Shown one piece after another: positions 200 to 35,630 of a stretch of 35,630 nucleotides of DNA. Position 1 is the stretch's first letter; the number at the start of each line of letters is the position of its first letter. The notes under the pieces are model-generated. The model made no database searches. It was not told the DNA's origin and saw only the letters and a list, made by a program, of their open reading frames with translations. This stretch comes from a virus. Made by a program: the position numbers and the translations under genes. The stretch spans positions 1-35,630 of IMG/VR virus record IMGVR_UViG_3300048589_000228; one strand, 5' to 3'.

Positions 200-1015
200 T
201 CAGATGAGCTCCGGTTGACGCCACCACGCGACGTGGGCGACGACGACCAACGGCAGCCATGCCGCCGGGTAGGTCTCAGCGGCGGCGAGCGCCACCACCG
301 GGCCGGCGGTCGTTGCGAGGAGCCGCACCGTGTCGGTGGCGACGAGGAGCTGCCCGTGAGCGACGGCGAGCGTGGCGATGGTCTGGCGGTCAGGTGCGAC
401 GAGGGCGGCAAGTGTGGCGCCCCACGGGGCGACCATCAGCCAGGCGTCACGCCACCGGCCGTGACGGTGCTCGATGGCGGAACGCACCGGATGGTCATGC
501 ACCCGGCGTAGGTTCGGGTGGGCGGTCACCTCGTCCATCTGCGGGCGACGGACGACGGCGGCGAGGGCAGGGGCGGCGAGGGCGAGCAGCGGCCACGGAG
601 ACCAGCACCACAACGCCACCCACACGGGCGAGGTCTCTTTCATGGTGGCGGCGAGCACCGTGACAGCGACGGCGGGCACCTCGTGGCCGTGGGTCCAGAG
701 GGCGGCTGCGATGAGTCCGACAGCGAGTGCTGGCAGGTCGACCCCGACAGGGCGGGCGACACGTGGCCCCCACACGCCCGGGAGTGCCACCAGGAGCGCC
801 GCAGCGGCGAGGGGCACCTGCCACCCCCCGGCTGTCCCGTGCGCCCACCAGGCACACCCCGCAGCGGCGAGCGGCCAGGAGACGAGCCACACGGCACGCC
901 ACCGGTGAATGCTGTCCCGACACACCGCGGGGAGGAACCATCGGAGGTTGAACGGGCGAGCCACCGGCTTGCCGGTGCCGGCGATGAGGTAGCGGGCGGC
1001 GTCAGGACCCAACAT
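200..1015 (-). CDS. Polytopic membrane protein paired with the glycosyltransferase
   Basis: This 271-aa protein has about six hydrophobic segments, for example around residues 40-60, 65-85, 92-110, 115-150 and 195-215, and a longer hydrophobic C-terminal stretch after that. Charged or Trp/Pro-rich loops separate them, including a KETSPVWVALW patch near residue 127. The ATG at 1015 overlaps the end of the glycosyltransferase gene by 14 nt, so the two are probably co-translated. I do not recognise a named family. By position it may present a lipid-linked sugar or assist the neighbouring transferase, as membrane partners do in O-antigen-modifying phage cassettes, but that is inference. Its place between capsid and connector genes is unusual. 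Confidence 0.75.
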   Translation of the reverse strand: MLGPDAARYLIAGTGKPVARPFNLRWFLPAVCRDSIHRWRAVWLVSWPLAAAGCAWWAHGTAGGWQVPLAAAALLVALPGVWGPRVARPVGVDLPALAVGLIAAALWTHGHEVPAVAVTVLAATMKETSPVWVALWCWSPWPLLALAAPALAAVVRRPQMDEVTAHPNLRRVHDHPVRSAIEHRHGRWRDAWLMVAPWGATLAALVAPDRQTIATLAVAHGQLLVATDTVRLLATTAGPVVALAAAETYPAAWLPLVVVAHVAWWRQPELI

Positions 1016-1751
1016 GTGCCCGGAACGCCTGCTGGAGGTCGTAGGACTCCTCGTCGAAGAACACCCCGCCCTTGTCGTGGGTCGTCCTGACGGAGGTGTC
1101 GACGTGAAGTGGGATGCCACAGGCGGCGAGTCGGAGACAGAAGGAGATGTCCTCGCCGAACACGGTCCGCCCGCTCGGCCCCTTCGGCACCTCGATGCCG
1201 TCGAACCAGCGGTCGCCGTACTCGGCGCGCACCTTCTCCAGTGCACTGCGGTGGATGAGGAGGCAGGCGCAGCCGGTGGCGGCGACCTCGACGACCTCAC
1301 CTCTCGGGTAGTCGAAGATGGGGGCGAACCCGACCTCAGTGTCGGTCTCGCCCATCTTGTAGAGGGTGGGGCACATGCGGTAGCGGCGGGCGCCGAACTC
1401 TCCGGCGCCGTCGGACTTCTGGGCGAACGCCAGGCCACCCATCACCGGACGTTCGACGGGGTCCGCAGAGGCGACGAGCCGGTCGACGGTGTCCCCCGCG
1501 AAGCCCATGTCGGCGTCCACGAACCAGAGCCACTCAGCTTCTGACTCGTCGAGCACCGCAGCGGCGATCCGGTTGCGCCCGGCGTGGATGTGGCTGGCGC
1601 CGGTCTCCTTGCCCATCCACCCGTGGTGGTGGCGGAACATGCGCTGTTCGGCGGTCACGTCGTGGAGCATCAGCTCCATGAGCGAGTTGCCGAACACCGC
1701 CGACCACTCCCCCGGGTGGAGGAACCCGACCGTGACGGCGCCCCGAATCAT
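1002..1751 (-). CDS. GT-A fold (family 2-like) glycosyltransferase
   Basis: This 249-aa protein shows the hallmark of a GT-A transferase: a hydrophobic strand followed by an acidic metal-binding triad (WLWFVDADMGF, Asp79-Ala-Asp81). Upstream is a conserved-looking Asn/Arg region (AGRNRIAAAVLDES); near the C-terminus is FGEDISFC, where the acidic pair resembles the catalytic-base motif of the family. No signal peptide or membrane segment is seen. The ATG at 1751 overlaps the stop of the 56-aa gene (ATGA); a longer GTG-type start at 1778 is less likely. Within the virion gene block it could glycosylate capsid or tail protein, or a host surface polymer with its membrane partner. Donor and acceptor cannot be read from sequence. 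Confidence 0.85.
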   Translation of the reverse strand: MIRGAVTVGFLHPGEWSAVFGNSLMELMLHDVTAEQRMFRHHHGWMGKETGASHIHAGRNRIAAAVLDESEAEWLWFVDADMGFAGDTVDRLVASADPVERPVMGGLAFAQKSDGAGEFGARRYRMCPTLYKMGETDTEVGFAPIFDYPRGEVVEVAATGCACLLIHRSALEKVRAEYGDRWFDGIEVPKGPSGRTVFGEDISFCLRLAACGIPLHVDTSVRTTHDKGGVFFDEESYDLQQAFRAHVGS

Positions 1752-1918
1752 CGGATGGAGCGCCAGTAGGAGAACCACGGGCGGCGCCGCTTGCGCGTCT
1801 CCCGTAGTTCACCAGGAGCGGCGGTCGCCTGCTCCACCGGACGGTCCGTGTCGTCTTTCGACGTGTGCACGACCGTCCACACGCGGCCGTCGATGACGAC
1901 CTTCTCCGTGATACCCAT
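1748..1918 (-). CDS. Small basic protein following the capsid gene
   Basis: This 56-aa protein (MGITEKVVIDGRVWTVVHTS...) has a short beta-type N-terminus and a very basic, aromatic C-terminus (RKRRRPWFSYWRSIR). A strong ribosome binding site (GGGGAGG) sits 4 nt before ATG 1918, and its stop overlaps the glycosyltransferase start, so it is very probably translated. It could be a small head component or a regulator of the downstream pair. No family recognised. Confidence 0.7.
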   Translation of the reverse strand: MGITEKVVIDGRVWTVVHTSKDDTDRPVEQATAAPGELRETRKRRRPWFSYWRSIR

Positions 1919-1992: not shown

Positions 1993-3417
1993 TCAGGCCG
2001 AGGTCTTGTCCTGCAACAGGCGGAACGCCACGTCGTTGACCGAGTCGGCACCGGTGCGCCAGTAGGCGTACCAACCGCGCCGGCCGTCGGGCAGGTTGTT
2101 CGCCGTGTTGAACATCTGGGGGATGTACTCCACGGCGAAGCTGCCGGGCTTGTCGACGACGACGTAGTTGGAGAAGTCGCCGAGCACGATCCGGTTGTCG
2201 CGAACCGTGGTGGTCGCCGTGGTCGGCGCGTCGTCGGACTCGACCACCGGACGACCGAGCCACCGCTGAGCGGGTGCCTGGGTCAGGTCGGTGGAGTAGT
2301 TCGCCGACACGGCGGTGCCGAGATTCTGCACCACGAGGGACCACGTCGGGTGGGTGAGCCACGCCGACTTGCCACGGAACCGCACAGGCACACCCGAGTA
2401 GACCGCGTCGAGGTCGACCTTGCCGATGGTGGCGGCGGTGGTCGACGTCAGCTCGACGTTGGTGTTCGCGTCCAGCGCGGTGAACACGCCGGTTGGCTCG
2501 TTGGTGCCGGTGCCGGTGCAGTGCGCCGCACCCTCGAGACGGTCGCGGGCATCAGCGAACATCATCAACAGCTCGCCGGCCAGGCCGGCGATGTCCTCGG
2601 TCGCCTCGATGGACGCCTGCACGAACGCCTGCGCCTTGTGCGTGGGGATCGTGGGCTGGGCGAACGTCGGGGAGTCGTCGGACACCTCGGTGAGCTGAGC
2701 GTCGAACGACGCGGTGACACCGGCGGAGGTGATCCCCTGCCAGGAGGTGTCGCCGGGACGGGTCAGGGTGACCACCCGGGAGATGCCGCGCACAGCGTTG
2801 GACGTGCCCGAGTTGGTCAGGATGACCGTCGGGTCGAGGTGGGTCGGCACGAGGTAGTTGCCGTTGGCGTCGGTCACCGTGGAGAGCGCGGTGCGCTCCT
2901 CGGAGGTGAGGCGCCACTCGTTGCCGGTCACCATCTTCGCCCAGCCGGACTCGTAGGCGTCGGTCGCCCGGGCGATCAGGGCACGGGCCCAGTCCCGGTC
3001 GGCACGGTGGCGCATGACCAGCTTGCGGACGTGGTCCATGTCCTCCGGGCGCTCCACCTTGTGCTCCAGGGAGCGGGTGAGCGCGTCGGCGAGCTGCTGT
3101 GGGGTGGCCGACCGGTCCTCCAGCACGTCGGTGCTGTCGGGCTTGGCGATCACCTGGAGCGCCGGACGCTTCGCACGCTCGGCGGTGCGCTCGGCGATGT
3201 CGACCAGCTCGGCCTCGCGGGCGTCGATCTCGGCGAGCTTCTCGTCGATGTCGGCCACCTCGGCCTGTCGGGCGGCGATGGCCGCGTCGTCGTCGGGGGT
3301 GAGGGACCGCTCCTCGTCGAGGGCGACGGTCGCCACGGCCTCGAGCGCCTCGATGGCGGCGTCTCGGGCCTGTTCCAGTTCGGCGCGCTTCTCGCGCACC
3401 AGTTCGAGAGCCTTCAC
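1993..3417 (-). CDS. Major capsid protein, HK97 fold
   Basis: This 474-aa protein forms the icosahedral shell. Residues 1-85 are a strongly charged coiled coil (KRAELEQARDAAIEALEAV, then DIDEKLAEIDAREAELVDIAE) typical of the delta/scaffold domain removed by the prohead protease. The rest has the expected HK97-fold features: a G-rich loop region, the long spine-helix stretch ATEDIAGLAGELLMMFADAR, then a TGTGTNEPTGV segment and a C-terminal P-domain strand series. It follows the protease gene with an ATGA overlap at 3414-3417. Length and place (terminase, portal, protease, capsid) fit the family. Confidence 0.95.
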   Translation of the reverse strand: MKALELVREKRAELEQARDAAIEALEAVATVALDEERSLTPDDDAAIAARQAEVADIDEKLAEIDAREAELVDIAERTAERAKRPALQVIAKPDSTDVLEDRSATPQQLADALTRSLEHKVERPEDMDHVRKLVMRHRADRDWARALIARATDAYESGWAKMVTGNEWRLTSEERTALSTVTDANGNYLVPTHLDPTVILTNSGTSNAVRGISRVVTLTRPGDTSWQGITSAGVTASFDAQLTEVSDDSPTFAQPTIPTHKAQAFVQASIEATEDIAGLAGELLMMFADARDRLEGAAHCTGTGTNEPTGVFTALDANTNVELTSTTAATIGKVDLDAVYSGVPVRFRGKSAWLTHPTWSLVVQNLGTAVSANYSTDLTQAPAQRWLGRPVVESDDAPTTATTTVRDNRIVLGDFSNYVVVDKPGSFAVEYIPQMFNTANNLPDGRRGWYAYWRTGADSVNDVAFRLLQDKTSA

Positions 3418-7495: not shown

Positions 7496-8023
7496 CTAGG
7501 TGTTGTGTATACCACCGTCCGACGCGCGAGGGGTGGACCTCTCCCCAGATCGTCGGTCGCTGTCCCCCGGGCGGGCGGGTCGCCGGTCACGCCCGGTGCG
7601 GCGTCGGTACTCGTAGCAGGCGTGGCAGCGTCCGGCGTGGCCTGCCTCGGCCCACCGGTCATCAGGGCATCCGTGGACGTTGGCGCAGATGGCTAGCCCG
7701 CGGTCGACGGGTAGCGGGGGTGGTGGGGGTTCGAGCGTGTGGCGTCGGATGTTGTCGCACACCGCGGCGGCCTGGTCGATCTGACGCACGGCGTGCTCGA
7801 GGCGGGTGCGGGCGCCTGCCCATTCGTCGGTGGCGATGGCTGCGTGTCCGGTGGGGTCCGTGATGTGTCCGGGTGCGGGTGTGCCTCCGCCTGAGGCAAT
7901 GCCGGCGGAGTAGTCCCTGAGGGCGGCAACGAGTCGTGGGAGGTCGGTGAGGAGATCTCCGAGGCGTTGGTGTGCTCGGGTGGCGACGGCTGCAAGCTCG
8001 GATGGTCGGATGGGTCGGGTCAT
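7496..8023 (-). CDS. Hypothetical protein with C-terminal zinc-binding segment
   Basis: This 175-aa protein is helical in its N-terminal 95 residues (RPSELAAVATRAHQRLGDLL), followed by a proline run and then a Cys cluster with ICANVHGCPDD and GRCHACYEYRRRTGRD, which looks like a treble-clef or zinc-ribbon module. The last 30 residues are basic and low-complexity. It sits between the PrimPol-helicase and HNH genes, with a GGGAGA ribosome site before ATG 8023. The Cys module suggests nucleic-acid binding. Not recognised as a named family. Confidence 0.75.
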   Translation of the reverse strand: MTRPIRPSELAAVATRAHQRLGDLLTDLPRLVAALRDYSAGIASGGGTPAPGHITDPTGHAAIATDEWAGARTRLEHAVRQIDQAAAVCDNIRRHTLEPPPPPLPVDRGLAICANVHGCPDDRWAEAGHAGRCHACYEYRRRTGRDRRPARPGDSDRRSGERSTPRASDGGIHNT

Positions 8024-8050
8024 CCATGTCTCCCGTGGTTGGTCGTGGGG

Positions 8051-10174
8051 TCAGAACAGGTAGGCGTCGGTGTCGTCGTCGGTCGGGTCAGCGGTCAGGG
8101 ATGGGCCACCCCTGTCCCTTGTTAGGGACAGGGGGGTGTCCCCACTTCCCTCGTCCACCTGTCCGCGACTGTCCGCATCGCTGTCCGCCTTGGTATTGCT
8201 GGGGACTGACGCGCTGTCCGCCTCAGGCGTGGACAGGTGCTGTCCGTTCTCCGTCGCGCGCTGTCCGCGGACAGCTTTTCCACCCTCCGTGGCCGTAGCC
8301 GCCACAGTGAGTGACCGAATCTCAGCCTCTCCAGAGCACTCCCGACGCCACTTGATGGCAGCCGTCAGCACCCGGTTGGCGACAGCAGACCCAGCCTCGG
8401 AGAGCATCCGGCGCGCCGTCGGACGTCCCGCATCAAGCGGCACACCGAGCCGGTCGAGCAGATCCGCCGCTTCCCTTGTTCCCGCCGGCCAGGTCACACC
8501 CGCCGTCGTGGAGAACTCCAGTGGCGTGTCCGAGCGGACGATATCCACCCGTTCGGGGACCCACCCGAGTCGACGATGGGTGGCCTTGAGCGTGAGCCCC
8601 CCGTCATCCGCCGCGCTGAGGAACCACGCCACGTCCACGTCCGACGCCTTGGCCGAGGATCCCCGAGCTCGGGTGTTCTCGTGTCCTGCGTGGTCGAGGC
8701 GGAGCACGGCAGCACCGAGCGCACGCACGGGCTGGAAGGCCAGCCGGTAGAGGTCGTGATAGGTCAGAGCGTCGTTCTCGTCCCCCCCGACGACCCGGGC
8801 CAGGGTGTCGATCACCACGAGGTCGGGGGCGATCCGCTGCACCATCCTGATGAGCTGTCCCGCTCCATCCTTCGTGTTCATGGGAAGCAGCGGTGTGAGC
8901 TGAAAGTAGTGCAGCTCGCTCATGTCATCGTCAGGGCCGTAACCCATGTCCACGAGTCGCTCCTGAAGGTCCGCCGGGCCCATCTCCTGGTCGATGTAGA
9001 GCACCCTCAATCGACGCTGAGCGGGCAGACCGAGCACGGACCGCCCCGTGGCCGCCGCTGCGGCGATGTGGAGTGCCAGTAGCGACTTGCCGACCTTCGG
9101 GGCGGAGGTGATCGAGTGGAGCCGTCCGGCGGCCAGGAGCGGCTCCACGAGCCAGTCCGAGGACGTGTGGTCAGTCGCCCAGAACGTCGGCCAGTCGATC
9201 CTCGACCGGTAGAGGGGGGCGTCGGGGTCGTCGTCCTCAGCCTCAGACACCGCCTCGGCGCTGCCGACCGGCGAGGTCGTGACATCGGAAGTGTGCTCCT
9301 CCACCGCTTGGGCGATCGCCCACCGCCAGATCCCCTCGAGCTCCCCACGGCTGGGGAGTTGCCGACCGTCCTCCCCCTGGCGATCACGCCACGCCCGCTC
9401 CCACGCCTCGTTAAGCCACGTCCGGGCGCGCTCGGCGGAGTAGTGGCCGGTGCTCACCTCCCTGGCGACCCAGGGGGCGATCTTCACGAACGTCTCGTGA
9501 ATCCCGATGCCCTCATCGAGGTACCGGCCGGCCTTCTCCGCCACCCCGTGCAACTTGCGTGGCGTGCGGTCCTCGGTGTGCTCTGAGGTCCACAAGACCA
9601 CCTCTGCGTCGGTGGCGGCGGACTCGTAGGCTCCTCGGCCGGTGAGCCACCCAAGGAGCCGCTCGGGGGCGGCGGGGATCGCTTGGTGTGGGTCGTAGCA
9701 GTAGCGGTGCCCCTTGACGTCGGGGTGTGGTCCCCAGATGACGACCTGACCACCACATGCGCGCACCTCCCCCCACCCCTGCACGGGGAACCCTCCGGTG
9801 CTAGCGGACCACTGTCCGTCGGCAGCGAACACTCGGTGCCCTCGGCCGGGCCGCGTGGGGTTGAGCGCCCCCATCTTGCACACCTCGCGCATCTCGGGAG
9901 ACAGCGCCGAGGGGTGATCGACGTCGATGGCCACCGTGCCGTACCCCTGCGCCCACCCGATGTTCGTCCACCGGCTGTCGGATGCGAACACGGCGACCGC
10001 CTCGGCGGGGTCGGTGATCGCTCGGGACCACCAGTCCGCGCCGTAGGCGCACGGGTTCTTGCCGACGAGGGGCACGATGGCGAGTCCGTGGGAGCAGTAG
10101 TAGTGCGCTGCGGACTCGATGGGGAGGTGGCGGAGCTCCTCGACGGACACGGCCGGCTCTGGTTCGGCGTTCAC
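8051..10174 (-). CDS. Primase-polymerase fused to RecA-like (SF4-type) helicase
   Basis: This 707-aa replication protein has an N-terminal archaeo-eukaryotic primase (PrimPol) domain, about residues 15-180, with the metal-binding pair in TVAIDVDHP (D84, D86) and the GRGHRVF and QVVIWGPHP segments. The middle (from about 330) is a RecA/RepA-like ATPase with Walker A SAPKVGKSLLALH (358-364) and Walker B DLVVIDTLARV, plus RLDHAGH further on. A linker rich in Ser/Asp ends in an acidic tail (DDDTDAYLF) that might bind a partner. The GTG at 10174 overlaps the small upstream ORF by GTGA. It probably primes and unwinds phage DNA. Confidence 0.9.
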   Translation of the reverse strand: MNAEPEPAVSVEELRHLPIESAAHYYCSHGLAIVPLVGKNPCAYGADWWSRAITDPAEAVAVFASDSRWTNIGWAQGYGTVAIDVDHPSALSPEMREVCKMGALNPTRPGRGHRVFAADGQWSASTGGFPVQGWGEVRACGGQVVIWGPHPDVKGHRYCYDPHQAIPAAPERLLGWLTGRGAYESAATDAEVVLWTSEHTEDRTPRKLHGVAEKAGRYLDEGIGIHETFVKIAPWVAREVSTGHYSAERARTWLNEAWERAWRDRQGEDGRQLPSRGELEGIWRWAIAQAVEEHTSDVTTSPVGSAEAVSEAEDDDPDAPLYRSRIDWPTFWATDHTSSDWLVEPLLAAGRLHSITSAPKVGKSLLALHIAAAAATGRSVLGLPAQRRLRVLYIDQEMGPADLQERLVDMGYGPDDDMSELHYFQLTPLLPMNTKDGAGQLIRMVQRIAPDLVVIDTLARVVGGDENDALTYHDLYRLAFQPVRALGAAVLRLDHAGHENTRARGSSAKASDVDVAWFLSAADDGGLTLKATHRRLGWVPERVDIVRSDTPLEFSTTAGVTWPAGTREAADLLDRLGVPLDAGRPTARRMLSEAGSAVANRVLTAAIKWRRECSGEAEIRSLTVAATATEGGKAVRGQRATENGQHLSTPEADSASVPSNTKADSDADSRGQVDEGSGDTPLSLTRDRGGPSLTADPTDDDTDAYLF

Positions 10175-17758: not shown

Positions 17759-17853
17759 CACCGCCGACCCCCCGCCATGAACCGTCCCGCCAGCACGGCA
17801 GCGGGCACCGACACCACACACCACACGACGAGCACCACCAGCACGGCGGTCAC
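17758..17853 (-). CDS. 31-residue single-pass membrane peptide
   Basis: Starting at GTG 17853 (GTGA overlap with the upstream gene), the peptide reads MTAVLVVLVVWCVVSVPAAV and then LAGRFMAGGRR. It is one hydrophobic helix of about 20 residues with a basic tail. Its TGA overlaps the ATG of the GNAT-like gene. Overlapping at both ends, as in the rest of the operon, supports real translation. Confidence 0.6.
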   Translation of the reverse strand: MTAVLVVLVVWCVVSVPAAVLAGRFMAGGRR

Positions 17854-18092
17854 GACCCGTACCACCAGACAGCCAGCAGCCCGCACCCCCACAGCGCGAC
17901 GGCCACCCACACCCACCCGACCGCGTCCAGGGTGATCGCCCCCCGCTCCCGATGGATCTCCTCCAGCAGGCGGCGCAACTCGTTGCGGTGCCGGTTCTCG
18001 GCGAGGCGTTGCCGGTGCTCACCGATGAGCCAGCCGGCGGCGAATACTGCGGCGAGGGTCACGAGGAACACGGCGATCTGCCAGTCGGTCAT
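17850..18092 (-). CDS. Two-helix membrane protein with central charged coil
   Basis: This 80-aa protein has an N-terminal transmembrane helix (IAVFLVTLAAVFAAGWLIG), a charged helix rich in Arg/Glu (HRQRLAENRHRNELRRLLEE), and a second hydrophobic segment (VGWVWVAVALWGCGLLAVWW). Both ends are probably on one side of the membrane with the coil inside. It is preceded by a 3-nt gap from the 50-aa gene and followed by a GTGA junction. It belongs to a run of envelope-directed small genes. Confidence 0.72.
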   Translation of the reverse strand: MTDWQIAVFLVTLAAVFAAGWLIGEHRQRLAENRHRNELRRLLEEIHRERGAITLDAVGWVWVAVALWGCGLLAVWWYGS

Positions 18093-20033: not shown

Positions 20034-20689
20034 GCCTCGTTCCCCCATGTGTGCCACCCGAACCGTCGGCGCCTGGCGAACATGTCCAGCCTCGGTGCCG
20101 GTGAGCACGTCTCCACGAGGTCGTAGAACGACTCGGGTTTGGCAGAGTGGCGGGTGCGGTCAGCGACGAAGTGTGTAGGCACGTCGTTGCGCGCTGTCGG
20201 GAGCTTGCCTCGGATGCCGAACAGCACATGCTCCGTGCTGTTGCGGAACCAGTTGCCCATACCGATCTGTGGCTTGCACCACGTCAGGCACGTCTTGTAG
20301 GTGAACCCCCAAGCGTCGACCAGGTCGAACGCCTCTCGGAGGAATCCGTTGGTGGTCCACAGGTAGAGGTGCGCGTTGTCCGACGCGGGGAGATCGAGTG
20401 CGGCCAGCTCTGCGAGGGTCATCGTCGGGTAGTGGTCTTCGGCGGCGCCTCGGGTGGCGGTGTTGTCGTACCGCCAGGGCGGGTCTACGACGATGGTGGG
20501 GAACTCGGCGGCGGCCTCGGCCCAGAGCCTCACGGTCTCCCGACTCACCGGCACTCCCACGATGCCGCTCAGCTCATCGGCGATGCGCTGCCATGCCCAC
20601 CCCGCACCCCTGAGATGTCCCACCCACTCGAATGGGTCCTGGCGGAGGGAGGTGCGGGCTAGTCGTTGCAGTGGGGAGTCGTTCTCCAT
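20030..20689 (-). CDS. MT-A70 family N6-adenine DNA methyltransferase with N-terminal HTH
   Basis: This 219-aa protein has the catalytic tetrad DPPW (residues 69-72, in FPTIVVDPPWRYDN) and the following MT-A70 landmarks HYPTMTLAEL, HLYLWTTNGFL and FTYKTCLTWCKP. The SAM-binding fold continues with SKPE-like SAKPESFYDLVE and RLDMFARR. Residues 24-58 (VGHLRGAGWAWQRIADELSG...VSRETVRLW) form a helix-turn-helix, uncommon in the stand-alone enzymes. ATG 20689 is chosen; the promoter 9 nt upstream would give an almost leaderless mRNA. As first gene of the early operon it may methylate phage DNA against restriction or act as its own regulator. Confidence 0.92.
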   Translation of the reverse strand: MENDSPLQRLARTSLRQDPFEWVGHLRGAGWAWQRIADELSGIVGVPVSRETVRLWAEAAAEFPTIVVDPPWRYDNTATRGAAEDHYPTMTLAELAALDLPASDNAHLYLWTTNGFLREAFDLVDAWGFTYKTCLTWCKPQIGMGNWFRNSTEHVLFGIRGKLPTARNDVPTHFVADRTRHSAKPESFYDLVETCSPAPRLDMFARRRRFGWHTWGNEA

Positions 20690-20693
20690 GTCG

Positions 20694-20764
20694 TGCAACT
20701 ATATTGCAGTACCGCAGGAATGCAACCCCCTTGCGGAAGATTCTTCCCGGGTTCCCCCTTGCAA
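20694..20764. promoter_or_regulatory. Cluster of TTGCA/TGCAA half-sites in the divergent control gap
   Basis: Four pentamers lie in 71 bp: TGCAA 20694-20698, TTGCA 20704-20708, TGCAA 20721-20725 and TTGCA 20760-20764, with near-copies TTGCG in between. The first two form a perfect dyad around CTATA, flanking the -10 of the promoter read toward the methyltransferase, and the third overlaps its -35. CCCCCTTGC also occurs twice (about 20726-20733 and 20755-20762). The layout suits a repressor/activator operator or, beside a half-integrase, arm-type attachment sites. Confidence 0.5.
20698..20725 (-). promoter_or_regulatory. Putative early promoter for the methyltransferase operon
   Basis: On the minus strand TTGCAT (20725-20720), a 16-nt spacer and TATAGT (20703-20698) form a sigma-70-like promoter. 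The -10 is good and the -35 weak. Predicted start is about 20691, only 2 nt before ATG 20689, so the mRNA would be close to leaderless, common in actinobacteria. Confidence 0.55.
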
Positions 20765-21058
20765 ACGATTTGCGGTGAGGGCACCACCCACCGACGGCCG
20801 ATCACCGCGCAACGGATCTCCGAGCTCGTCGCCGGATGGGTGCGGACCGCCGGAGTGCAGCTCCACCCGAGGGACGGGCGCACCGCCCACGCGTTGCGCC
20901 GGACATGCGCCACGGACCTTCTCGAGCGCGGCACGTCGGTGCGGACCGTGCAAGCGGTGCTCCGCCACCAGTCGCTATCGACCACGGCCCGCTACCTGCG
21001 CCGGGCGGACGCGGCGGCGCTGGCCGAAGTGCTCGACGTGAGACGGTGGGCGGCGTAA
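20720..21058 (+). pseudogene. C-terminal half of a tyrosine integrase
   Basis: The coding pattern is convincing from about residue 45 of the open frame: ITAQRISELVAGWV, then box II HALRRTCATDLLERG, LRHQSLSTTARYLRR with the His and the tyrosine nucleophile, and a short end RRWAA. Missing are the N-terminal DNA-binding domain and the first catalytic Arg/Lys, so by itself it should not recombine DNA. Start is uncertain (ATG 20720 is the first plausible one). It is a decayed integrase or a deliberately short protein. The frame is intact, with no stops, which is odd for a dead gene. It lies on the opposite strand to almost everything else. Confidence 0.75.
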
Positions 21059-21068
21059 CGTCCCGGGG

Positions 21069-21176
21069 ATGAACGATGAGTGGGTGCTCGCCCTGTTGGC
21101 CGTCGTCGCGGTGGCTCTCGCACTGTTCGGCCTCTACCGGTTCATCGCCGCAGCGGTCGCCCGAGGTCGACGATGA
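21069..21176 (+). CDS. 35-residue membrane peptide after the integrase remnant
   Basis: ATG 21069 opens M-N-D-E-W followed by VLALLAVVAVALALFGLY, one hydrophobic helix, and a basic end AVARGRR. Its TGA overlaps the ATG of the next gene (ATGA). A GGGG run directly precedes the start. It is probably co-transcribed with the integrase remnant and the 68-aa gene. Confidence 0.6.
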   Translation: MNDEWVLALLAVVAVALALFGLYRFIAAAVARGRR

Positions 21177-21379
21177 GCGAGGAAGCCGACCGCCGCCAGC
21201 GCACCGTCATCACCACGGTCTCCGTGGTCGGGCTGGTTGTCGGCCCGTTGCTGATGGTCGACGCGTGGAACACCCAGGACATCACGGGCAAGGTCACTCC
21301 CGATGAGATGGTGATCGGGGTGGTGATTCTCGTGCTCGCCGTGCTCGGCATGGCGAAGACGCTCCTCGCCCGTCACTGA
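21173..21379 (+). CDS. 68-residue two-helix membrane protein
   Basis: The protein reads MSEEADRRQRTVITT, then a hydrophobic helix (VSVVGLVVGPLLMV), a polar hinge with WNTQDITGKVTPDEM, and a second helix (VIGVVILVLAVLGMA) with a basic tail. Both termini are predicted inside. It converges with the HTH gene, 10 bp away. Candidate roles are holin-like or exclusion protein; nothing decides between them. Confidence 0.68.
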   Translation: MSEEADRRQRTVITTVSVVGLVVGPLLMVDAWNTQDITGKVTPDEMVIGVVILVLAVLGMAKTLLARH

Positions 21380-32738: not shown

Positions 32739-33203
32739 TCATCCCCGCAGGCCTGCCCCGCGGAAGTCCACATCGAGCCCCGCTTGGCGGATCGCGTGAC
32801 CGATCGCCCACTCGAACTCGTCGACGATCTCCGGCATGGCACCGCGGACCGCTTCACCGATCACATACGGGCCACCGCCGGCCATGATGTCCCAGCTGTT
32901 CCCCACCCACGGGGGGAACTGCCGGTACTGCAACGCCCCCATGAACGCACCGACCCCGAACGGGACCCGGCCCGTGTTCCGCACCGCCACCGACGCCGAC
33001 GTCGACGTGCCCTTGCCGAGCAGCGCCGCAGCGGCCTTGCGTTGCTGGGGTGCCGCGTTGATCGCCTCACGCTTCGACCGGTCCGTCGCCAAGCGGCCGA
33101 CCTCCCGATAGGCGCGGGACAGGTCGCGGGTGGTGCCGGTCGCCTGACGGAACGCACGGGACAACTCCCGTGCACCTTCCACCCGCAGCGCCGGATCAGG
33201 CAT
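32739..33203 (-). CDS. HK97 gp10-like head-tail/tail protein
   Basis: This 154-aa protein (VEGARELSRAFRQATGTTRDL, then GRLATDRSKREAINAAPQQR) is helical at first, then has PFGVGAFMGALQYRQFPPW and a C-terminal helix (VDEFEWAIGHAIRQAGLDVDF). The helix-beta-helix plan is that of gp10-like tail completion proteins. Here it follows the tail tube and not the connector, a small departure from the usual order. Confidence 0.65.
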   Translation of the reverse strand: MPDPALRVEGARELSRAFRQATGTTRDLSRAYREVGRLATDRSKREAINAAPQQRKAAAALLGKGTSTSASVAVRNTGRVPFGVGAFMGALQYRQFPPWVGNSWDIMAGGGPYVIGEAVRGAMPEIVDEFEWAIGHAIRQAGLDVDFRGAGLRG

Positions 33204-34183
33204 CAGGGAGTGGCGTCGAGCGTCGTGTACGCCACGCTGATCGGCTGAGCGGAGCCGTCCGACAGACCCATGCCCGTGATCGCCTGCATCATCAGGCCCG
33301 GACCGTCCACCGTCGCATCGACCGCATCGAATCGGACGTTCGGCATCGTGATCGTCACACCCGGGTAGGTGGTCGCACCAATCAGCGTCGGAGACTTCGC
33401 CGTCACGATCACCGCAGCGAGCGTCCCGGCTGCGGTCTCCGCCTTGAACCGGTTGTATTGCGTCAGGCTGTCCCAGTCCGCCTCACACTCGAAAGTGATC
33501 TCCCGCATCCCCTCCTCAGCGGACTGCGCCCGCCGAGTAGAGTTCTGAAGGAAGTGACGGTCGGTCTTCAGCTTGTTGTCGACCTTCACCGACCACTTCG
33601 TGACAGGCACCGCGGTGCCGCCGATCGTGCAGTCAGCACGCGCCCACGACATCACCTCGACCGACGACGGATAGGACGCGGACGCCAACGCCGTGGCGGT
33701 CGACTGGTCCTCGAAGATCAGCTCAGCCTCGAATGCGAGCAGCCCCTCCTTCTCGCACGACAAGGTCCACGAGACGACCTTGCCGCCCTCCCACGTGAAC
33801 GCCTGATCCGTTGACCCGGCCGGGCCGAGCGGACGATTCACCTGCATGGTGAAGCTGTCGCCCCACAAGTCGCCCACGGTGCCCGTGTGCGTGTAGGCCG
33901 AGTCGGTCGGCCCGGCCGTCGCGACGGCACCGAGCATGTGCTTGAGCCACCAACCGAACCCCTTCGACGCCGGCTCCAGCTTGATGCCACCGGAAGCGCC
34001 GAGGATGTAGGGCACGAACCTGTCGGTACGGGCGACGCGCTGCCCGGAGCGCAGGCCCTCGGACACGGCTCGGCCGGTGTCGAGCTTGATCGACTCCGAC
34101 GAGTACTCGAAGAACCGGTCCACCGTGACCGCGGTCCCGTAGGTCACCTCGTCCTTCACCCCGAGCTGGCTGACGATGGGCAT
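33203..34183 (-). CDS. Major tail (tube) protein
   Basis: This 326-aa protein begins MPIVSQLGVKDEVTYGTAVT and contains SEGLRSGQRVARTDRFVPYI, GGIKLEPASKGFGWWLKHML and KVVSWTLSCEKEGLLAFEAE, the signature of tail tube proteins in HK97-like actinophages, with a second beta domain toward the C-terminus (TIGGTAVPVTKWSVKVDNKL). It polymerises into the tail tube around the tape measure. It is the largest of the neck-to-tube genes and in the expected position. Confidence 0.92.
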   Translation of the reverse strand: MPIVSQLGVKDEVTYGTAVTVDRFFEYSSESIKLDTGRAVSEGLRSGQRVARTDRFVPYILGASGGIKLEPASKGFGWWLKHMLGAVATAGPTDSAYTHTGTVGDLWGDSFTMQVNRPLGPAGSTDQAFTWEGGKVVSWTLSCEKEGLLAFEAELIFEDQSTATALASASYPSSVEVMSWARADCTIGGTAVPVTKWSVKVDNKLKTDRHFLQNSTRRAQSAEEGMREITFECEADWDSLTQYNRFKAETAAGTLAAVIVTAKSPTLIGATTYPGVTITMPNVRFDAVDATVDGPGLMMQAITGMGLSDGSAQPISVAYTTLDATP

Positions 34184-34396: not shown

Positions 34397-34867
34397 TCAG
34401 GTGATGCGGGTGTGAACCTCGACCGACAGACGCATCGCGGAACCGCACCCCTCAGAGGTGCGCCACGGTGTCGGGCCGTCCAGGTCGGACAGCACGGCAT
34501 GGACGACCCCCGGCAACGGGTTGCCGTCCAGGTCGTCGAGGAACGGATGAGCGGCGAGCTCCACTCGGATCGCTTCCACGAGATCCTCGACGTCGATGTC
34601 GGACTGCTCGTGGTCGGGGTCGCCCGGGTTCCACGCTGCGGCGACGACATCGACGGTGCACACGTCGTCATAGGCGAGCGACCCGGCGCGCTGGTTCGCC
34701 ACGGTGAGCACACCGCGCACGTCGGAGAGGAACACGTTCGCCCCGACCATCGGCTCGGTAGGTGCGGAGTAGGTGACGGTCACCCCGGCGAGCCCCGAGG
34801 CGCCCTCCAGCACGTCACGCAGCCGAGACTTGATCGCTGACCGGGAGAGTCGGGTGGCGACAGCCAT
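34397..34867 (-). CDS. Tail terminator
   Basis: This 156-aa protein has an alpha-beta order: helix SRSAIKSRLRDVLEGA, strands VTVTYSAPTEP and NVFLSDVRGVLTVANQ, helix VEDLVEAIRVELAAHPFL, last strand AMRLSVEVHTRIT. It matches gpU-like tail terminators, which cap the tube and join it to the head. ATG 34867 shares a base with the connector stop (TGATG). Confidence 0.78.
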   Translation of the reverse strand: MAVATRLSRSAIKSRLRDVLEGASGLAGVTVTYSAPTEPMVGANVFLSDVRGVLTVANQRAGSLAYDDVCTVDVVAAAWNPGDPDHEQSDIDVEDLVEAIRVELAAHPFLDDLDGNPLPGVVHAVLSDLDGPTPWRTSEGCGSAMRLSVEVHTRIT

Positions 34868-35630
34868 CAGGCGATCCCGGGGATGGCCCGGTAGCCGTTG
34901 AGCACGGCATCCAACTCGAGGACTCCGGTGGGTCGACCGGCGTCGTAGTCGGGGGTGGAGTAGCGGACAGTGTTGCCGTCGACGGTCTCCCACAGCATGT
35001 CAGACGGCGCCTGAGCGCCCCGGCCGAGGAGGTCCCGCCGGACAGCGCGCACCATGGCGGTGACGATCTTGGCGGGGGGGAACGGGTCGCCGTGTTCGAC
35101 CTCGACGACGATCGGCTTGCCGGCGGTCCACCCCGCGTCGAGATGGAGGACGGTCCCCGCGATGATGTCGATGTCGGCAACGTCGACCGCTTCACCATCG
35201 ATCGTGGCGGCACGAACGGCGGACACGGGAGAATGGAAAGCGGGCAGACAGGTGCCACCCTTGCCCCAGTGCGACTCAATGACGAACTGGGGCACGAACG
35301 ACTGCCGGCAGTACCGCTCGACGTACTCGGCCATCCCGTCGCGGTGTTCCATGAGCAGCCAGTCGGGGAACCTGCCGACGTCGGACAGCCCCGGTTCGCG
35401 GCGGAGCCGGGCGAGGGTCATGTAGTCGGTTCCGACCGCGTCGACCCGGAACCCGACGACCTGTGGTGCACCACCGACGGTGGCGGTGATCGTCACATCG
35501 AGCTGGTCGAGCTGGTCGAGGTGGTTGGCCGCCGTGAGCGTGACGGCCACATGGGTGCCGACGACGGCAGCGGATGGCGCCGTAGCGGTGGTGCCATCAG
35601 CGCGGGTGACGACGGCCGCCGGGGTCACCG
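34867..35630 (-). CDS. Head-tail connector (gp6-like), main part
   Basis: Together with positions 185-1 this gives a 273-aa protein. The helical core is visible in DYMTLARLRREPGLS, DWLLMEHRDGMAEYVERYCR and QSFVPQFVIESHW, then strands and a C-terminal helix KIVTAMVRAVRRDLLGRG. The pattern YVERYCRQSF is the mark of gp6-type adaptors that form a ring under the portal. A short LDQLDQLDV triplet-like duplication lies at the contig join. The stop overlaps the tail terminator start. Confidence 0.87.
   Translation of the reverse strand, partial: VTPAAVVTRADGTTATAPSAAVVGTHVAVTLTAANHLDQLDQLDVTITATVGGAPQVVGFRVDAVGTDYMTLARLRREPGLSDVGRFPDWLLMEHRDGMAEYVERYCRQSFVPQFVIESHWGKGGTCLPAFHSPVSAVRAATIDGEAVDVADIDIIAGTVLHLDAGWTAGKPIVVEVEHGDPFPPAKIVTAMVRAVRRDLLGRGAQAPSDMLWETVDGNTVRYSTPDYDAGRPTGVLELDAVLNGYRAIPGIA
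35504..35630. repeat. Terminal direct repeat, right copy
   Basis: Exact copy of positions 1-127. See the left copy: it marks circular closure of the assembled genome, inside the connector gene. Confidence 0.95.

Follow-up and report, generated by a model that had tools for sequence, protein, structure and literature searches.

A glycosyltransferase gene overlapping the gene of a predicted GT-C-fold membrane protein in the head operon of a probable actinobacterial virus

The window, i.e. the whole stretch of DNA analysed here, comprises the 35,630 bp of a virus record. A direct terminal repeat of 127 bp (positions 1–127 and 35504–35630) indicates that the genome is probably complete. The host is probably actinobacterial, as pointed to by a WhiB-like gene in the genome. 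The genes transcribed from the minus strand follow each other in the order terminase, portal, S78 protease, HK97-type capsid protein, a 56-aa ORF, a glycosyltransferase (GT), a membrane protein (MP) and a connector-like gene. The relevant features are the following:

Upstream of the GT/MP pair, minus strand: genes coding for portal, S78 protease and HK97-type capsid protein, assigned by profile matches
1993–3417, minus strand: major capsid protein of the HK97 type (PF05065, 1.3e-30), a possible sugar acceptor
1748–1918, minus strand: 56-aa ORF between the capsid and GT genes, conserved in the relatives L004 and L040 (PHROGs connector, E 0.0098)
1002–1751, minus strand: GT-A glycosyltransferase (P0001), 249 aa, ATG at 1751 and stop at 1002
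200–1015, minus strand: MP (P0002), a predicted GT-C-fold membrane protein without helix TM1, 271 aa, ATG at 1015 and stop at 200
1002–1015, minus strand: 14-nt overlap of the GT 3′ end with the MP start, read off the sequence
989–1003, minus strand: MP codons 5–9, bounded by the invariant residues D5 (predicted catalytic Asp) and Y9 (the Tyr paired with it)
1–185 and on to 35628–34867, minus strand: the next gene downstream of MP, delimited by its translation and the 127-bp terminal repeat
33203–34183, minus strand: tail tube protein (PF18906, 1.8e-29), a second possible sugar acceptor

The coordinates and the overlap of the two central genes agree with the earlier note on this DNA once the minus strand is stated. 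The overlap is consistent with translational coupling, and the stop of the 56-aa ORF, whose PHROGs connector match is weak, in turn overlaps the GT start in ATGA. The gene starting at 185 crosses the contig ends through the terminal repeat and ends at 34867; its product has an Ig-like start, its sole PHROGs match is a family of unknown function, and it is a probable head-tail connector judging from its position and sequence. The pair is thus placed between the capsid gene and this probable connector gene.

Elsewhere in the window, a 130-aa ORF (20666–21058, plus strand) matches PF00589 over the C-terminal half of the integrase alone (profile positions 101–170), with no N-terminal part of a tyrosine integrase evident for it, so it appears to be an integrase remnant or a mini-integrase; with such a fragment in the genome, a strictly lytic lifestyle cannot be asserted. 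Two short ORFs (17850–18092, minus strand, and 21080–21379, plus strand) contain two hydrophobic stretches each and are either possible holins or chance ORFs.

Since GC-rich DNA gives many spurious ORFs, the conservation of GT and MP was checked. Scans of IMG/VR yielded 97 distinct MP sequences in public records, which were grouped at 90% identity into 56 clusters. The dN/dS values between the window and L004 (NG86) are 0.10/0.49 for MP and 0.04/0.63 for GT, with 0.03/0.25 for the capsid protein. Both genes are genuine, intact and under purifying selection.

Pfam gives a hint of GT2 for the GT product and no more, while the PHROGs glycosyltransferase family is matched at 1.5e-18. Nine residues are invariant across 35 relatives (R59, D79, D81, G160, H167, E200, D201, H225 and K227), among them the metal-site motif D79-x-D81 (DxD) and the acidic pair E200-D201. 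In the fold comparison performed with the AlphaFold2 model (mean pLDDT 93.1), 745 of the 997 aligned chains have Z >= 8 and the top rows are GT-A enzymes. The motif, the invariant acidic and His residues and the model thus bear out the GT-A transferase proposed earlier, with a predicted Rossmann-like GT-A fold. The best structural match is A197 of the archaeal virus STIV (Z 19.9, 2.2 Å over 175 residues, 16% identity), followed by the LH3 GT domain (Z 18.6), mimivirus R699 (17.0), Mnn9 (16.1) and COLGALT1 (15.8); that LH3 and COLGALT1 are both protein glycosyltransferases is suggestive, not decisive.

MP has no match in the Pfam, PHROGs and NCBIfam families, 34 members of its family have none in Pfam, and no useful match was obtained against PDB sequences. 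The model built from 33 aligned relatives (mean pLDDT 92.9, pTM 0.90) contains about ten membrane helices, so that the six counted previously were too few, as well as four juxtamembrane (JM) helices. Foldseek returned no PDB match below E 0.001, its top rows, with weak E-values, being oligosaccharyltransferase subunits and ALG12. With VIA-align, the first 43 PDB rows are all GT-C folds with Z from 15.4 to 7.6, and the next row drops to 2.5, which upholds the guess of a GT-C fold made in the earlier note. The matches include Pmt4 (Z 15.4), Stt3 (15.2), AglB (14.9), ArnT (14.6), ALG12 (13.7), AftD (12.5), PglB (12.1), AftB (11.1), EmbB (10.0), PimE (9.2) and ALG6 (7.6), and also PIGU (9.5 and 9.2).

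By its model, MP belongs to the GT-C fold without the canonical GT-C architecture, because TM1 is missing, a point that had been overlooked; at 271 aa it is shorter than every matched GT-C chain. The standard eleven-helix layout is given as 1-6-4 (PMC6801728), and that of the MP model is 6-4, the leading 1 being absent, with JM1, JM2, a very short TM6 and two JM helices between TM7 and TM8, a pattern similar to that of PimE. Residue 1 of MP meets residues 42–51 of AglB, Stt3, PglB and ArnT, just past their TM1, which by the alignment ranges places MP D5 within a residue of D56, the catalytic Asp of PglB (PMC6801728). In PimE, the tip of JM1 carries the catalytic D58, which forms a bond with Y62, and neither residue is dispensable (PMC12041525); MP D5 and Y9 have the same Asp-x-x-x-Tyr spacing; likewise, PDAARY in MP corresponds to PDETRY in E. 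coli ArnT. The residues D5, Y9, D93, E127, D228 and R231 do not vary in any row of the alignment of MP relatives, and D5 is the predicted acidic catalytic-type residue in the first outer loop of the GT-C plan.

In BFVD, the MP model has a single clear relative among viral proteins, which comes from Caudovirales and is uncharacterised. A separate BFVD entry, A0A514K2W1 (326 aa, uncharacterised, from a Nitrosopumilus spindle-shaped virus), aligns with probability 0.99 and TM 0.56 but E 0.39, and may represent a small GT-C fold from an archaeal virus.

TM1 is missing not only in the window but in nearly all phage relatives, most of which have an in-frame stop close upstream of the MP start; among them, an upstream hydrophobic stretch of transmembrane strength was found in L113 only. 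It is kept, by inspection, in three cellular relatives: L180 (an Ignavibacteriae MAG, 7914–8801), L181 (Microtetraspora glauca, about 7872–8816) and L187. Cellular relatives are rare, with one among the 396 genomes of the phylum sample: the first genome scan revealed none, a second one with a distant alignment revealed two, and a family-level search added one more. The chromosomal relatives with TM1 are seen in an Ignavibacteriae MAG and in Streptosporangiaceae, and no GT gene lies beside the MP relative in L180 and L181. Loss of TM1 as a single derived event had been expected at first, but the MP tree, in which L113 and L180 stand on long branches, does not fix the polarity, and TM1 was either lost in phages or gained in the others.

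The functional linkage of the two genes suggested in the earlier note is supported by the presence of GT in the same locus in 49 of the 56 MP clusters. GT is located immediately upstream of MP in 38 clusters, upstream with a one-gene gap in nine, where the intervening gene is in several cases a methyltransferase, and downstream in three, these placement classes overlapping as one cluster may count in more than one. The seven clusters without GT in cis are three truncated contigs (L037, L088 and L090), three with other glycosyltransferase genes nearby (L002, L108 and L111) and L113, a 91.7-kb contig of a distant phage in which no GT of this family was found. Close relatives with MP and without GT, which would speak against the linkage, were sought and not found, L113 being the sole GT-less phage cluster. 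In the group of L093, L095 and L099, the MP gene lies between those of terminase and portal, and GT still follows the capsid gene.

The reverse case, GT present with MP missing from the locus, occurs in L040–L044 and in L046, and MP is broken in L039, so an obligate pair is ruled out. L040 shares 98.9% identity with L004 over 5.5 kb to the GT end and then leads straight into a methyltransferase gene, which looks like a near-clean deletion of MP (L040 5479–5512 versus L004 5479–6307), with identity falling to 75% downstream of the MP site. As MP was lost there while GT and the head genes stayed, it is not essential, and as GT occurs without MP more readily than MP without GT, MP leans on GT more than the reverse, an asymmetry that the comparison of loci adds to the previous description. 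Further genes of a sugar type occur in the loci of relatives. L004 encodes a GT-B type transferase (PF13524) behind its connector genes, and inspection shows comparable genes in L039, L040 and L109. Methyltransferase genes adjoin the pair at several loci, those of L004 and L080 being recognised by Pfam, and L044 and L046 contain other sugar-type genes, again by inspection. These loci look like a glycan-building module within the head operon. In L108 (694–4736), which is a different phage type also encoding a ribonucleotide-reductase-like protein, the MP relative is found amid four other glycosyltransferase-like genes.

To our knowledge, all solved GT-C enzymes act at the outer side of the membrane. 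In MP members, catalytic-side segments have a mean of 13.4 K/R, against 0.2 for the loops opposite, the sides having been set by hand from the helix order, without coordinates. In E. coli ArnT the charge is reversed, with 11 K/R in 35 residues of the N-terminus and the first three cytoplasmic loops. Under the positive-inside rule, according to which cationic loops remain on the cytoplasmic side, the catalytic face of MP would therefore be cytoplasmic. Phosphate-binding sites are also cationic, and since the MP relatives with TM1 show the same cationic bias on the catalytic side, the charge signal was downgraded from strong evidence for inversion. It is proposed tentatively, and with more doubt than confidence, that the phage MP family represents an inverted GT-C type, without TM1 and with a cytoplasmic catalytic face, in which a polyprenyl-linked sugar of the inner leaflet would glycosylate assembling virions with no flippase. 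Loss of TM1 would make such an inversion simple.

Taken together, GT and MP most likely form a cassette of two glycan enzymes that is expressed along with the head genes and serves virion glycosylation, a reading to which we give about an even chance, the enzyme activity being predicted. The soluble GT-A enzyme would take a nucleotide sugar in the cytoplasm and attach its sugar either to a virion protein, such as capsid or tail tube, or to polyprenyl phosphate as carrier. MP, as a minimal GT-C enzyme whose Asp5, set by Tyr9, would activate the acceptor, would then extend or use the GT-A product by transferring a sugar donated by a polyprenyl phosphate. The activity, the polyprenyl donor, the order of action and the virion protein as acceptor are all what we infer. 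Capsids assemble in the cytoplasm, so virion glycosylation is simplest with the catalytic face of MP turned inward, an orientation compatible with the distribution of charges but not proven by it. It is favoured by the overlap of the genes within the head operon, by the nearest fold match of GT to A197 of a virus with a glycosylated coat, then to LH3 and COLGALT1, and by the extra sugar-type genes (GT-B type transferase, methyltransferases) in the operon of relatives. The predicted GT-C fold of MP with invariant D5 and Y9 also speaks for it, as does the retention of GT in cis even where the MP gene moved in the head operon. Against it count the outward orientation of known GT-C enzymes, facing a side where no capsid protein occurs, the dispensability of MP in L040 and the cationic catalytic loops found also in relatives with TM1.

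Modification of the host envelope, which is the main alternative and which we regard as less likely than virion glycosylation, would have GT-A charge polyprenyl phosphate, a host flippase export the product and an outward-facing MP sugar an envelope glycan. The receptor would thereby be masked and re-infection hindered, in the manner of the gtr and Arn systems. MP does share the fold of enzymes that work at the outer face with lipid-linked sugars (PMC6801728), its matches include the mycobacterial GT-C enzymes AftD, AftB and Emb, and three-component GT-C systems, one of them in a tailed phage, alter surface glycans (PMC11127046). However, the genome has no match to PF04138 of GtrA-type flippases and no other multi-helix candidate by hydropathy, which counts for virion glycosylation although a flippase of the host might serve. 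The location of both genes within the late head operon and the MP charge pattern opposite to that of ArnT also argue against envelope modification, and as the sole integrase trace is a C-terminal fragment, there is no evident lysogen to benefit from it.

It is improbable that MP is a non-catalytic subunit of GT-C fold binding lipid or anchoring GT-A at the membrane in the manner of PIGU. This subunit of GPI transamidase, GT-C-like but with another role (PMC12041525), is among the fold matches, and TM1 is missing, but the six invariant residues of MP suggest an active site and in the L093 group the MP gene stands apart from GT. Glycosylation of phage DNA by GT, with MP unrelated, has precedents in the DNA-glycosylating phage transferases of the literature but is very improbable here, as the scanned ORFs include no recognisable gene for base hypermodification and the tight link of GT to MP and the head genes would be left unexplained.

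Dozens of related viruses carry the pair, which probably adds sugars to the virion or, alternatively, to the surface of the host. A phage protein family with no Pfam or PHROG annotation thereby becomes a defined, testable enzyme class, whose member in the window is shorter than any of the GT-C folds that it matched and is linked to a viral GT-A gene of the head operon. The pair offers a simple system for studying how phages build particle glycans and for asking whether GT-C catalysis is possible on the cytoplasmic side.

Among known systems, virion glycosylation in actinophages is represented by mycobacteriophages such as Che8, which are reported to have glycans on capsid and tail tube and to encode glycosyltransferases (PMC11256854, PMC12619734). 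The window phage likewise encodes a glycosyltransferase; unlike its head-operon GT, those of the Che8-related F1 phage Maravista are placed near the 3′ genome end, and the excerpts of these sources mention no GT-C partner. STIV A197 is, like GT, a small viral GT-A enzyme; it is essential to the virus and possibly glycosylates the STIV coat protein, which is glycosylated (PMC10551542), but it belongs to an archaeal virus with another capsid lineage, and the excerpted account mentions no GT-C partner for it. MP resembles the GT-CA class (ArnT, PglB, PimE and PMT) in fold, Asp-x-x-x-Tyr motif, juxtamembrane helices and very short TM6, and differs in the missing TM1, the shorter length and the lack of a detectable sequence family. 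Compared to the gtr seroconversion cassettes, the Arn system and the three-component GT-C systems, the window pair has no flippase, a GT-A enzyme without membrane anchor and a location in the head operon, and shares with all of them the joint encoding of a GT-A and a GT-C protein.
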